Origin: Acidobacteriaceae bacterium | Lineage (GTDB): Bacteria; Acidobacteriota; Terriglobia; Terriglobales; Acidobacteriaceae | Direction: 5' to 3' | DNA length: 64,000 bases | NCBI GenBank assembly: GCA_003151335.1 | Contig: PLXE01000054.1 | Span: 1-64,000, forward strand | In this document: positions 13,427 through 18,754 of the stretch, piece by piece | Layout of the letters: each line of letters starts with the position of its first letter | Position numbering within the stretch: the first letter of the stretch is position 1 | Notes under the pieces: generated by a model | Seen by the model: only the letters and a program-made list of their open reading frames with translations | Databases searched by the model: none | What the model was told of the DNA's origin: nothing | Translations under genes and position numbers: made by a program

Positions 13427-14343
13427 TGCCGCGCTACCTGCTCTCGCGATCGCTGTACATGCTGCCGGTCGTTTGGCTGGTAGTGTCGGTGGTCTTCCTG
13501 CTGATTCACTTGGTGCCGGGCGACCCCATCCCGCAGATGCTGGGCGAAGGAGCCGCCGCCACTGACATCGCGGCGGCGCGTCATGCCTACGGGCTGGATG
13601 CTCCGCTGGGGCAACAGTACGTGAACTACTGGCGCGGTCTGGTGCACGGCGACATGGGACGCTCGCTGCGCCTCAATCAGAATGTCGGCCACGTGATCGC
13701 GCAAGCCTATCCCGCTACCATGGAACTGACGCTGGCGGCATTGCTGGTCGCGCTCGCCCTGGCGATTCCCGCCGGGGTTCGATCGGCGCTGCGCCGCAAT
13801 CGTTGGGACGACCGCGCGCTCAGCTTCGTCTCGTTGCTGGGATTGTCATTCCCCAACTTCGCGCTGGGGCCGATCCTCATTTTGTTCTTCGCGATTGAAT
13901 TGGGCTGGCTGCCGGTTTCAGGCTCAGGCTCGCTGGCCCACCTGGTGCTTCCCGCGATCACCATGGGAGGAGCGCTGGCCGCCATCCTTACACGAATGAT
14001 TCGCACGTCGATGCTGGAAGAGCTGGGACAGGATTACATCCGCACTGCGCGCGCCAAAGGTTTGCCCGAGCGTACCGTGGTTTATCGCCACGCCCTGCGC
14101 AATGCGATGATTCCGATTCTCACCGTCGTCGGATTGCAATTTGGAGCGCTGCTCGCCGGCGCCATCGTGACCGAGACGATCTTCTCGTGGCCAGGCATTG
14201 GGCGGCTTACCATTACGGCCATCTCCAACCGCGACTATTACCTCGTACAAGGCTGCATCTTGATGATCGGGCTGACCTATGTGCTGGTGAACTTCCTCAC
14301 CGACCTGCTGTATTCGGCGTTCAACCCAAGGATTCGGCAGTAG
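13423..14343 (+). CDS. ABC transporter permease, DppB/OppB type
   Basis: 'DYIRTARAKGLPERTVVYRHALRNAMIPILTVVGLQFGALLAGAIVTETIFSWPGIGRL'; overlaps upstream stop by ATGA. Confidence 0.9.
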   Translation: MMPRYLLSRSLYMLPVVWLVVSVVFLLIHLVPGDPIPQMLGEGAAATDIAAARHAYGLDAPLGQQYVNYWRGLVHGDMGRSLRLNQNVGHVIAQAYPATMELTLAALLVALALAIPAGVRSALRRNRWDDRALSFVSLLGLSFPNFALGPILILFFAIELGWLPVSGSGSLAHLVLPAITMGGALAAILTRMIRTSMLEELGQDYIRTARAKGLPERTVVYRHALRNAMIPILTVVGLQFGALLAGAIVTETIFSWPGIGRLTITAISNRDYYLVQGCILMIGLTYVLVNFLTDLLYSAFNPRIRQ

Positions 14344-14400
14344 CGGCGGTGGCGGAAACCGTGGCGCTTCTAAAGTGGTATGGCGCCGGTCATCTTCTGC

Positions 14401-14428
14401 TTGACAGACATTCCGCCTGTGCTATGCT
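14401..14428 (+). promoter_or_regulatory. putative sigma-70-type promoter of the methionine operon
   Basis: TTGACA (14401-14406), 16-nt spacer, TATGCT (14423-14428). Confidence 0.6.
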
Positions 14429-14461
14429 CTTGTCACTGGTCCTTGTGACCAGACTTTTACT

Positions 14462-14539
14462 ATGCATTTGCTGATCAATTCCCGAATGTTTATGGCCATG
14501 TGCGCCCCAGGTGGCGCCGTGCCTGCGTCGGGAGTGTGA
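14462..14539 (+). CDS. putative Met/Cys-containing leader peptide
   Basis: ATG...TGA encodes MHLLINSRMFMAMCAPGGAVPASGV; lies between promoter and terminator, upstream of methionine genes. No strong Shine-Dalgarno visible. Confidence 0.55.
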   Translation: MHLLINSRMFMAMCAPGGAVPASGV

Positions 14540-14570
14540 TCACGCACCTAACAATCTCCCTACACTGAGC

Positions 14571-14607
14571 GGCCGCCTGGGGCTTACACCGGCGGCGATT
14601 TTGTTTT
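14571..14607 (+). terminator. intrinsic terminator/attenuator upstream of the methionine operon
   Basis: Stem GCCGCC(t)GG / CCGGCGGC with 8-nt loop, followed by ATTTTGTTTT. 14572-14583 is also fully complementary (one G-U) to 14504-14515. Confidence 0.7.
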
Positions 14608-14646
14608 AGCCCATATTTCGCTCAGACCATCGAAGGGAGATTCACC

Positions 14647-15846
14647 GTGCCTCACGGCAATTACGACATACCTACTATTGCGATCCATGGCGGACTGGGA
14701 CCCGATCCGACCACCGGCGCCATTCTCCAGCCCATCTGCCAATCGACAACTTTCGTGCAACAAGCGGTCGGTGTGCACAAGGGATTTACCTATTCGCGCG
14801 TAGCTAACCCAACCGTGGACGCGCTGGAGCGCGCACTAGCTGCGCTCGAAGGAACACCTGCCACGGTCTGCTTTGCCACCGGCATGGCGGCAATCACCAC
14901 GCTGTTTCTGTCACTGCTCAAGTCCGGCGACCACGTAATCATTTCCGAAGTGGTTTATGGCGGCACGGTTCGTCTGTGCCAACAACTGCTAAGTGGGCTC
15001 GGCATCGAGCACACGCTGGTGGATGCATCGCGCGCGGATCTGGTCGAGCAGGCCATCACGCCGCAAACCAAGTTGATCTTCATCGAGACGCCGGGAAATC
15101 CGACGCTCAAGCTGTGCGACATTCCGGCTATTGCAGCCGTCGCTCGCCGGCACAGCGTGCGTCTCGCGGTGGACAACACTTTCCTGACGCCGGTGCTGCA
15201 ACCCGTGTTCCAGCTCGGCACCGACATCAGCGTGCTTTCCACCACCAAGTACATCGAGGGCCATAACGCGACCGTAGGCGGTTCGCTGGCGACGCACGAC
15301 GAACAACTGCTGGAACGCTTCCGCTTGATTCGCAAAACCACGGGCTGCATTCAGTCGCCGCAGGATGCCTGGCTCACGCTGCGCGGGATCAAGACTTTGC
15401 CGGTGCGGCTCAAGCTGCATTCCGAGAACGCTGGCACGGTGGCTCGATGGCTGGAATCGCATCCCGCGGTTGAGCGCGTGCATTATCCCGGGCTCGCCTC
15501 GTTTCCGCAGAGAGCGCTGGCGGAGCGTCAGCACCTGGCACACGGAGGCATGCTTGCCTTCGAGATCACAGCCGGCGCCGAGGCTGCCATCGAGCTGATG
15601 AACTCCGTGCGTCTCTGCTCGCTGGCTGAGAACCTGGGCGCAGTCGAGACATTGATTACCCATCCGGCCTCCATGACCCATGGCGATGTGCCGGTGGAGA
15701 CGCGTAAAGCGATTGGCATTACCGATGGGCTGATCCGGCTCTCAGTTGGCTTGGAATCGCCAGAAGACATCATTGCCGACCTGGAACAGGCGCTGGCAGT
15801 CGCAACCGAAAAAGCTGGGAGGGCATCATGCATCGTTACCCGATAA
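14647..15846 (+). CDS. PLP-dependent trans-sulfuration enzyme (cystathionine gamma-synthase / O-acetylhomoserine sulfhydrylase type)
   Basis: 'YSRVANPTVDALERALAALEG', 'VDNTFLTP', 'STTKYIEGHNATVGG' (PLP lysine). Confidence 0.9.
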   Translation: MPHGNYDIPTIAIHGGLGPDPTTGAILQPICQSTTFVQQAVGVHKGFTYSRVANPTVDALERALAALEGTPATVCFATGMAAITTLFLSLLKSGDHVIISEVVYGGTVRLCQQLLSGLGIEHTLVDASRADLVEQAITPQTKLIFIETPGNPTLKLCDIPAIAAVARRHSVRLAVDNTFLTPVLQPVFQLGTDISVLSTTKYIEGHNATVGGSLATHDEQLLERFRLIRKTTGCIQSPQDAWLTLRGIKTLPVRLKLHSENAGTVARWLESHPAVERVHYPGLASFPQRALAERQHLAHGGMLAFEITAGAEAAIELMNSVRLCSLAENLGAVETLITHPASMTHGDVPVETRKAIGITDGLIRLSVGLESPEDIIADLEQALAVATEKAGRASCIVTR

Positions 15847-17561
15847 CAGTTCTGAAGTTTGGCAGCTCGGTGCTGTGTTGCGAGGCCGATCTCTCCAAGG
15901 CCGTGCAGGAAATTTATCGCTGGACTCGCGACGGACACCGCGTTGTTGCGGTGGTTTCGGCGATTGGTTCGACTACCGATTCTCTGCTCGCGCGCGCCCA
16001 GACATACGGCCCCAATCTGAGTGATGAAGCCGTGGCAACCCTGGTCGCGACCGGCGAAGCTACTTCAGCGGCGCTGCTGGCCCTCGCGCTCGAACGCGCT
16101 GGATTACATTCGGTGGTTGTAGATGAAGTCCGGCTTGGCTTGCGAACCCGTGGTCCGGTGTTGAATGCAGAGCCTTGTGCCATCGACGTTCCACGGGTGT
16201 TGAGCGTTTTGGAAAATGCCTCGGTTGCCGTGGTGCCCGGGTTCGTCGGACGGCAGGAGGATGGAACTCTATCCCTCCTCGGCCGTGGCGGCTCCGATTT
16301 GACCGCCGTCTTCGTGGCCCATCACTTGGGGGCCGAACGCTGCCGGCTGGTCAAAGATGTGAACGGCATCTTCGAACACGATCCGGCCGACAAGGTCAAT
16401 GTCCCGCGCCGCTATAGCACGGTCGGCTGGGCGCAGGCGGTGCGCGTCGGCAACGGCGTGGTGCAGCCCAGGGCGATCGAGTTTGCCGAGCTGCATGGGC
16501 TCACCATTGAAGTGGCGACCCTGAACTCCGACTCGCCTACTCTGATCTGCGGCCTTCCCATATCGTTTGCCGACCAGTTCCCCTCGGCGACGCCGTTGCG
16601 CGTCGGACTGCTGGGGGCTGGCACCGTCGGACTGGGCGTCTATCGCACACTGGCGGCCCATCCGGAGACGTTCGACATCAGGCGCGTCGCCGTTCGCCGC
16701 TTGGAGCGCGAGGACGGCATTCCTCCGGTTTTGCTCACTCACGATCCCTGGGAGGTCGTCAGTTCGGACTGCGACGTGATCATCGAGTTGATCGGCGGCT
16801 TGTCGCCGGCGAAGGAATTGATTGAGGCGGCGCTGAAGTCGGGCAAGCACGTCATCACCGCGAACAAACTCGTCGTAAGCCGCCACGGCAAACAGCTTCG
16901 TCGCATTGCTGAGTTTGCCGGCGTGCAACTTTTGTATTCAGCGGCGGTCGGAGGTGGTGTGCCGATGCTGGAGCAGGTGGGGCGCATCGCTCAGACCAGC
17001 GGCATCCGAACGCTGCATGGCGTGGTGAATGGGACCACCAATTTCATCCTCGACCGGCTGGCGGAAGGCCTGAGCCGCGAAGACGCGCTGGGTGAAGCAC
17101 AGCGGCTGGGTTTCGCCGAGCAGGACCCTACCTCCGACCTCGACGGCAGCGATGCGGCGCACAAACTCGCGCTGCTGGCGCAGACCGCTTTCGGGGCGTG
17201 GCTGAATCCGGCAGACATCGAGCGCACCGGCATTGAGCACTTCGATAGCGAGGCCGTCCAAGATGCCGCGCGGTCGGGGCGCTCGGTTCGCCTGGTCGCG
17301 TCGTTGAGTCAGGATAAGTTCGGGTTGCGAGCTCGCATCGCTCCGCAACTGTTCGCGCGTACCCATGCCTTTGCGCAAACCATCAATGAAGAGAACTGTC
17401 TCGAAATCGAATCGCAGAGCGGCGACGTGGTGCAGGTGCGCGGCAAAGGCGCTGGACGATGGCCCACTGCGGTGTCGGTCATGGCCGATGTGTGCGACAT
17501 CTACCGCGCCCAACAAGTGGGTGTTGCCGATGAACTTTTGGTCACCGGGAGGGCTTCATGA
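15828..17561 (+). CDS. fused aspartate kinase-homoserine dehydrogenase lacking ACT regulatory domains
   Basis: N-terminal aspartokinase 'TVLKFGSSVL...LGRGGSDLTAVFVAHHL...VKDVNGIFEHDP'; C-terminal homoserine DH 'VGLLGAGTVGLGVYRTL...TANKLVVS...GVVNGTTNFILDRL...DPTSDLDGSDAAHKLALLA'. Only 577 aa. Confidence 0.92.
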   Translation: MHRYPITVLKFGSSVLCCEADLSKAVQEIYRWTRDGHRVVAVVSAIGSTTDSLLARAQTYGPNLSDEAVATLVATGEATSAALLALALERAGLHSVVVDEVRLGLRTRGPVLNAEPCAIDVPRVLSVLENASVAVVPGFVGRQEDGTLSLLGRGGSDLTAVFVAHHLGAERCRLVKDVNGIFEHDPADKVNVPRRYSTVGWAQAVRVGNGVVQPRAIEFAELHGLTIEVATLNSDSPTLICGLPISFADQFPSATPLRVGLLGAGTVGLGVYRTLAAHPETFDIRRVAVRRLEREDGIPPVLLTHDPWEVVSSDCDVIIELIGGLSPAKELIEAALKSGKHVITANKLVVSRHGKQLRRIAEFAGVQLLYSAAVGGGVPMLEQVGRIAQTSGIRTLHGVVNGTTNFILDRLAEGLSREDALGEAQRLGFAEQDPTSDLDGSDAAHKLALLAQTAFGAWLNPADIERTGIEHFDSEAVQDAARSGRSVRLVASLSQDKFGLRARIAPQLFARTHAFAQTINEENCLEIESQSGDVVQVRGKGAGRWPTAVSVMADVCDIYRAQQVGVADELLVTGRAS

Positions 17562-18754
17562 AATTCGCCAGCCGACTGCTTACTTTCAACGCCTGTCCGG
17601 AAGATCCGTTCCGGCCAATCGCTACGCCGATCTACCAGACCGCAACTTTCGAACAGGAAGAGGCGGACACATTCGGTCGCTACGATTACTCGCGCAGCGG
17701 AAATCCAACCCGCACCGTGGTCGAAGACCTCCTGGCGCGATTGGAAAATGCCGAGCGCGCTTTCTGTTTCTCCAGTGGCTTGGCGGCGATCAGCGCGGTC
17801 GCGCGATTGCTCTCGGTGGGAGACGAGATTCTTGCCGGAGATGATTTGTACGGCGGGACCTACCGGCTGTTTTCCAGAATTCTGGACCGTACCGGCGTGA
17901 CCGTCCGTTATGCTGACGCGTGCGACATCGAGAAGTTTGCAGTGCAGATCACTCCCCAGACCCGACTGCTTTACATCGAGACGCCGACCAACCCGCTGCT
18001 GCGCATCGTGGACATCCGCAAGCTGGCCGACCTGGCGCATCATCACGGAGCGTTATTGTGCGTGGACAGCAGCGCGATGTCGCCGTACTTGCAGAATCCG
18101 CTCGATCTGGGGGCCGACATCGTCGTGCACTCAGCGACCAAGTATCTCTGCGGCCATAGCGACGTGACTGCGGGCGTAGTTGCAGTGAAGCGGCCCGAAC
18201 TGGCGGAGCAAATCTATTTTATTCAGAACGGGGAAGGTGCCGCACTCGGTCCGTTCGACTGTTACCTGTTGCTGCGAGGCGTGAAGACACTGAAGCTGCG
18301 GCTGGACTGCCAACAGGCGAATGCGCTCAAGGTGGCGAATTTCCTGAGCGCGCATCCTGCGGTGCAGCGCGTGCATTACCCTGGGCTGGTAAGCCATCCC
18401 GGTCACGATGTGCATGTGCGGCAGGCGCGCGGAGCCGGGGCGGTCATCAGCTTCGAGACCGGCTCGTTCGAAGTGTCGAAGCAAGTGGTGGAGGCGACGC
18501 AGTTGTTCCGCATCAGCGTGAGCTTCGGCAGCGTGAATTCCTCGATCAGCCTGCCGGGGTGCATGTCACACGCGAGCATTCCGGCGGAGATCCGTCAGGC
18601 GCGCTCGTTAGCGACGGACCTGGTCCGGCTGTCGGTGGGAATCGAAGATGTGGACGACCTTATTGCCGACTTGGAGCGGGCATGCGAACGTGCGGCGTGT
18701 GCAGTTGCCGCCGCGAACCGCGCCGCGGAGATCAGCGAGCAGCAAGTTGTGTAG
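17558..18754 (+). CDS. PLP-dependent trans-sulfuration enzyme (cystathionine beta-lyase/gamma-synthase-like)
   Basis: 'YDYSRSGNPTRTVVEDLLARLE', 'HSATKYLCGHSDVTAGVV'; ATGA overlap with upstream gene. Confidence 0.88.
   Translation: MKFASRLLTFNACPEDPFRPIATPIYQTATFEQEEADTFGRYDYSRSGNPTRTVVEDLLARLENAERAFCFSSGLAAISAVARLLSVGDEILAGDDLYGGTYRLFSRILDRTGVTVRYADACDIEKFAVQITPQTRLLYIETPTNPLLRIVDIRKLADLAHHHGALLCVDSSAMSPYLQNPLDLGADIVVHSATKYLCGHSDVTAGVVAVKRPELAEQIYFIQNGEGAALGPFDCYLLLRGVKTLKLRLDCQQANALKVANFLSAHPAVQRVHYPGLVSHPGHDVHVRQARGAGAVISFETGSFEVSKQVVEATQLFRISVSFGSVNSSISLPGCMSHASIPAEIRQARSLATDLVRLSVGIEDVDDLIADLERACERAACAVAAANRAAEISEQQVV

Follow-up and report, generated by a model that had tools for sequence, protein, structure and literature searches.

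A predicted ribosome-mediated attenuator with methionine control codons upstream of a methionine operon in Acidobacteriaceae

Introduction

Methionine genes are usually described as being controlled by SAM riboswitches, T-boxes or repressors. The trp, his and leu attenuators of Proteobacteria and Actinobacteria combine a short leader ORF, tandem control codons and mutually exclusive 1:2, 2:3 and 3:4 pairings. For methionine, a leader peptide with three Met codons, MetL, was found before metBA in Campylobacter jejuni and attenuation was proposed; the same account limits MetL to C. jejuni, C. coli and C. doylei (PMC3847290), and its start codon was later seen by Ribo-seq (PMC11955535). A metL leader peptide before metNIQ in Streptomyces lividans is a single-species prediction (PMC8079986). 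A survey of actinobacterial elements listed none for methionine (PMC1262725), and a 2010 survey noted an associated function for almost none of the attenuators predicted in the phylum Acidobacteriota (PMC2965389).

Here we describe a leader upstream of a methionine operon in a 64,000-nucleotide stretch of DNA from an Acidobacteriaceae bacterium (hereafter, the window). It resembles the trp, his and leu attenuators in the three respects given above, but its control amino acid is Met, its phylum is Acidobacteriota, its terminator is nested inside a covarying stem that sequesters a Shine-Dalgarno (SD) sequence, and its leader ORF has no SD and is probably leaderless in several relatives. With Campylobacter MetL it shares a short ORF that contains Met codons and is placed before genes of methionine biosynthesis; covariation of an antiterminator is absent from the accessible part of the Campylobacter account (PMC3847290), and the likeness is one of kind, by description, with no sequence relation claimed. 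The Streptomyces leader ORF is likewise leaderless, contains Met codons and precedes an operon related to Met, but that operon encodes a transporter and has no typical terminator. The SAM-I riboswitch (RF00162) also attenuates methionine-related genes but has no match here. In translational attenuators with SD sequestration, such as the erm leaders, an event on the leader likewise decides SD exposure; here, in contrast, the signal would be a stall at amino-acid codons, and the same stem also encloses a terminator. An initial annotation of the window remarked that attenuation on Met or Cys codons is rarely described compared with SAM riboswitches or T-boxes, which must be qualified in that Met leader peptides had been proposed before, in Campylobacter and Streptomyces. 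The precedents that we found in the searchable literature are predictions only, from single lineages, and the open-access literature searched yielded no description of the present element; subscription literature could hold more.

Results

The leader and the operon that it precedes lie on the forward (+) strand. A sigma-70-like promoter occupies positions 14401-14428 (TTGACA at 14401-14406, a 16-nt spacer and TATGCT at 14423-14428); it is the one such site in 14300-14800, where 0.3 were expected, and equivalents occur in same-genus relatives and several other genera. The leader ORF (14462-14539) encodes 25 amino acids, MHLLINSRMFMAMCAPGGAVPASGV, and contains the control codons ATG TTT ATG GCC ATG (Met-Phe-Met-Ala-Met; 14486-14500, with ATG at 14486, 14492 and 14498) followed by TGC (Cys) at 14501. 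An intrinsic terminator hairpin with a U-rich tail (14572-14607; −16.3 kcal/mol) is formed by GCCGCC at 14572-14577 and GGCGGC at 14591-14596, followed by ATTTTGTTTT; a consensus scanner did not call it because its loop exceeds 8 nt. These elements, and a first gene starting at 14647, had been placed by the initial annotation, and the raw sequence confirmed all of them, the ORF with its tandem Met codons and TGC base for base.

The first gene (14647-15846, start codon GTG at 14647) encodes a cystathionine gamma-synthase-like PLP enzyme (CGS; PF01053, 457 bits; best NCBIfam model NF005871), a call based on family membership and best score, with scores below the strict NCBIfam equivalog cut-offs, that of NF005871 included. 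It is followed by an aspartokinase-homoserine dehydrogenase fusion (AK-HSD; 15828-17561; PF00696, PF03447 and PF00742, with NF004976 above cut-off) and a cystathionine beta-lyase (CBL; 17558-18754; TIGR01329, 525 bits against a cut-off of 487.5). The three genes overlap and constitute one methionine operon leading from homoserine to homocysteine. Elsewhere in the window, Rfam models marked an Acido-Lenti-1 RNA (RF01687; 34064-34110, + strand, 50.5 bits) and a tRNA gene (RF00005; 5525-5606, − strand, 56.4 bits).

Homologous leaders were found before orthologues of the first gene, both within the genus and in more distant relatives. About 30 distinct homologues are known from Acidobacteriaceae, where they span 12-13 genera, and one more from another acidobacterial family. 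The promoter, ORF, helices and gene context all recur among them, and about 30 distinct leaders were read over their whole length. Of 399 genomes of the class, a covariance model built from seven leaders matched 14, none of them outside the family. A refined model, applied to 398 genomes of this family, matched 43, a count that includes a few false positives at weak E-values. Four weak matches (L113, L114, L115 and L120) were rejected as false positives and have no methionine gene downstream. The refined model also confirmed the member in the other acidobacterial family (G512; E 9e-10). A pattern scan for a 32-nt motif across 264 Gb of species genomes returned 23 stretches, all acidobacterial, where roughly 0.02 chance matches were estimated. 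The CGS subfamily was present in 63 of the 398 genomes; 37 of these, from 12 genera, carry the leader, and the 26 that lack it are confined to three genera.

In all verified copies the first downstream gene belongs to the methionine pathway, and in nearly all it is CGS (55-97% identity). Two genomes of one genus carry a separate leader copy (L106 and L108) before a beta-lyase gene unlinked from CGS, and in a further genome (G699) the leader precedes AK-HSD. At this last locus (L085/L137; G699:C88, ~110679-110785) a CGS-like start of about 20 codons is fused in frame to AK-HSD after the leader, and deletion of the CGS gene has apparently put AK-HSD directly under the leader, judging by these remains. 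In genus g48, one of the three genera whose CGS genes lack the leader, relic leaders before CGS (L123, L124, L132 and L133) keep a promoter-like start and a GC hairpin, and their Met codons and antiterminator pairing are gone. In one of them, L132, the decaying leader reads MSLSAASRMPRAIRSPEEIRPASSG (RMPRAIRSPEE), in which two of the three Met codons and the antiterminator were lost together.

The leader frame is open in 29 of 29 leaders, with no stop among 701 codons; the other two frames contain 22 and 5. Conservation of the Met codons, a check that the initial annotation had proposed, was borne out: RMxMAM is present in 28 of 29 leaders, with the second and third Met in 29/29 and the first in 28/29, and neighbouring codons (x and the residue that follows the cluster) vary. 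That residue is Cys in 11 leaders, Arg in 11, Pro in 6 and Thr in 1. In some further g46 leaders the first Met is eroded and MAM is retained, and a distant copy from another family (L069) has MSMGM. The leader ORF is thus probably translated, as far as sequence can show. Most leaders have no SD before the leader ATG. The initial annotation had recorded this absence at 14462 as a weak point; the absence is real, but it is a trait of the family rather than a flaw. In five relatives (L008, L009, L049, L052 and L065) the ATG lies 6-8 nt past the −10 box, so that the ORF is probably leaderless there.

Between the presumed transcription start and the leader ATG, the window and several other genera have a hairpin (14436-14452; CTGGTC/GACCAG) that the initial annotation had missed. 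Its pairing is maintained through G-C to G-U to A-U changes in L003, L004, L005 and L011, and hairpins of unrelated sequence stand at the equivalent position in L035, L037 and L061. It is a candidate for 5'-end protection or for a role in SD-less initiation.

Downstream of the Met codons, region 2 (14504-14515) pairs with region 3 (14572-14583), the latter being also the 5' arm and loop of the terminator. This 12-nt antiterminator is exactly as first proposed, with 11 Watson-Crick pairs and one G-U, and it excludes the terminator (3:4) by overlap at 14572-14583. The suggested covariation check came out in its favour: when the 2:3 partner was located by anchoring on the conserved CCGYCTRGG, 93.2% of cells were paired among 27 sequences, with 12 double-change cells, and slid controls were 29-55% paired. 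None of 500 shuffles was as good; because relatedness is not taken into account in these shuffles, most weight lies with the slid controls and with copies that arose independently. Among such copies, L069 has an antiterminator of 11 bp and other sequence (CCCTCGGGCGG/CCGCTCGAGGG) that still pairs; it counts against the helix in alignment A3 because two columns are out of register, its own pairing being complete. The antiterminators of L106 and L108 differ in sequence and yet remain paired, one of them being a different 12-bp helix (CCCTAGCCGGTG/CACCGGCTAGGG).

The possible protector noted at the outset (1:2; GCGCC-CCAGGT-GGCGC, 14502-14517) is likewise exact and covaries, with 78.8% of cells paired, 15 double-change cells and 2 of 500 shuffles reaching its covariation score. 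Because its columns overlap those of the antiterminator, the two helices cannot coexist. It reaches outward through the Met codons. A large leader hairpin (P1 and inner P2; 14469-14548) would be able to form before region 3 is transcribed. The minimum free energy of 14462-14571 is −39.5 kcal/mol; on inspection, the arms of this hairpin change in sequence among relatives and stay complementary. The folding energy of the leader was 4.8 sd below that of dinucleotide shuffles, none of which (0/200) was equally stable.

A further helix, missed by the initial annotation, encloses the terminator. Its 5' strand (AATCTCCCTACACTGAGCG; 14553-14571) is complementary to the SD of the first gene and pairs with 14619-14642 (CGCTCA...AGGGAGATT), which contains that ribosome-binding site. 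This outer stem is present in nearly all leaders, and positions just upstream of the SD core take all four Watson-Crick pair types. When SD strands were swapped among leaders, a leader's own SD made 8.38 pairs with its anti-SD, compared with 7.49 ± 0.14 for swapped ones (0/500); this test replaced RNAduplex z-scores (mean −1.3), a weak statistic. In one relative (L005, in G002) an insertion with an inverted repeat lies upstream of CGS; it separates the terminator from the SD and falls within the loop that the outer stem closes.

To follow pairing as a function of ribosome position, the nascent leaders of 29 members were folded with a ribosome footprint masked from −17 to +11 of the A site. With the A site on the first Met codon, the next codon or the second Met codon, the computed probability of 2:3 was 0.93, 0.92 and 0.94, respectively, and the antiterminator formed in 27-28 of 29 leaders on the first or second Met codon. 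The probability fell to 0.57 at the Ala codon, 0.16 at the third Met and 0.05 at the following C/R/P/T codon, where 0 of 29 leaders formed the antiterminator, and it was 0.00 to 0.01 while the ribosome covered region 2. The predicted signal is therefore Met and not Cys. The third Met codon, also invariant, lies at or just beyond the edge of the range predicted for stalling. In the window alone, the switch fell between codons 12 and 13, with a probability of 0.00 at the Cys codon; a shift of a few bases in the edge of the footprint displaces this boundary by about one codon. A ribosome with its A site upstream of the Met codons likewise allows 2:3, as expected of any upstream stall.

Other ribosome states gave a less clear separation. 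With a ribosome at the stop codon, 2:3 was predicted at 0.82 for the family and 0.96 for the window. In the ribosome-free nascent leader at equilibrium, 2:3 and the terminator reached 0.78 and 0.15 in the window, and 0.52 and 0.37 as family means. Given this near-tie and the pairing at the stop codon, a clean OFF state would need co-transcriptional kinetics or fast ribosome release.

We conclude that the leader (14436-14646) is very probably, at a probability of roughly 0.86, a ribosome-mediated attenuator of the methionine operon, with methionyl-tRNA as the signal that it senses. Covariation, mutual exclusivity and folding all support the 1:2 / 2:3 / 3:4 logic that had been suggested for this operon. 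Under Met limitation, the ribosome on the leader would wait with its A site on a Met codon, at 14486 or 14492. It would break the protector arm as well as the large leader hairpin, so that region 2 could pair with region 3; this pairing would remove the terminator hairpin and loosen the stem that hides the SD, allowing both transcription and translation of the operon. With Met in ample supply, the ribosome would advance over region 2, region 3 would fold with region 4 and transcription would stop, and any read-through mRNA would have its SD sequestered. If no ribosome loads, the leader hairpin would presumably form before region 3 is made and leave the operon OFF. The dependence of 2:3 on the A site is computed, and the response to Met limitation would follow from it. 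Because the anti-SD stem and 2:3 together make a pseudoknot, we infer the opening of the SD by 2:3; in pseudoknot-free folding, computed SD exposure climbed only from about 0.07 to 0.27.

What the sensor acts on is less certain. The initial annotation named the terminator as the output, which fits the window but not as the sole output, as the covarying anti-SD:SD stem would add to termination or replace it. It is possible, with odds somewhat short of even, that the same sensor has a mainly translational output, the SD-sequestering stem being the conserved part and termination minor or absent in most members. The outer stem occurs in nearly all leaders and covaries, many g46 members have a poor inner hairpin and only 1-5 U in 9, and the U-tract is weak in many Granulicella-type relatives. 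Against this, the window's clade and L069 have strong inner hairpins with U-rich tails, and there the exclusivity of 2:3 and 3:4 is exact. The outputs of the Met-sensing attenuator look dual, with termination in the window's clade and, in members with a poor U-tract, a mainly translational effect; how much each contributes is something we infer.

Arrest by the nascent peptide, in which R-M-x-M-A-M-x-x-P-G-G itself would stall the ribosome on Met or S-adenosylmethionine, was also considered. Plant cystathionine gamma-synthase, which uses S-adenosylmethionine-dependent peptide arrest, provides a precedent, and residues besides Met (R, A and PGG) are conserved. The conservation outside Met tracks the RNA pairing, however: where L069 shifts the pairing element, GPRAG replaces PGG, L041 has PAG, and the second copies have RTLVG or RTLAG, and the residue after the Met cluster is free to be C, R, P or T. 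We therefore regard peptide arrest as unlikely.

Still less probable is an undescribed metabolite riboswitch, with 2:3 and anti-SD:SD forming an H-type pseudoknot and the ORF being incidental. Such a reading would suit the pseudoknot topology and the position of a conserved element ahead of methionine genes, but not the frame-specific avoidance of stops or the Met codons, and the conserved bases are largely explained by codons or pairing. Known riboswitches, a possibility raised by the initial annotation, found no match: the whole Rfam library returned neither a SAM riboswitch nor a T-box for the window, and at a relaxed threshold 14300-14800 likewise yielded no credible match, the best hit being a microRNA model far below cut-off. 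SAM-I (RF00162) had no match in genome G000, and the SAM-II model (RF00521) was silent in every control genome as well, so that its genome search carries no weight. Across the family, SAM-I scored over cut-off in 22 of 60 sampled genera and was absent from the leader-bearing genomes recognised in that 60-genus sample. Replacement of the leader by SAM-I at CGS was rejected: no swap was seen, upstream regions of CGS genes lacking the leader gave no riboswitch match, and four SAM-I loci (L070-L073) precede threonine synthase-like genes (named by reading the sequence), not methionine genes.

The TGC codon that follows the Met codons in the window and in its genus had led to Met and Cys being named together as control codons; the Met part stands, but sensing of Cys, alone or with Met, is hardly tenable and was rejected on codon conservation and the folding scan, as over half of the relatives have Arg, Pro or Thr at that codon and, by the folding prediction, a ribosome held at it would occlude region 2 and promote termination.

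Discussion

Sequence elements, an open frame, covariation in three helices and a gene context in the methionine pathway have been shown for this leader. A broader account, for which we would judge the odds to be even, is that it represents a Met-specific attenuator family that is old in Acidobacteriaceae and occurs in at least one other acidobacterial family. One sensor, consisting of RMxMAM with the protector and antiterminator, would serve a nested terminator and SD-sequestor, acting on transcription or translation according to genus; it would be encoded in leaderless or SD-less mini-ORFs and would have been copied to other methionine genes upon operon break-up.

The carriers include isolates (Acidobacteriaceae bacterium KBS 83, strain AB60 and Granulicella sp. 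L60), so the predicted attenuator can be tested. With its covariation, the Acidobacteriaceae leader is a comparatively documented family of predicted Met-codon attenuators. It offers a testable case of attenuation that would be based on methionine, with which every protein also starts, and of one sensor that may be connected either to termination or to SD sequestration.
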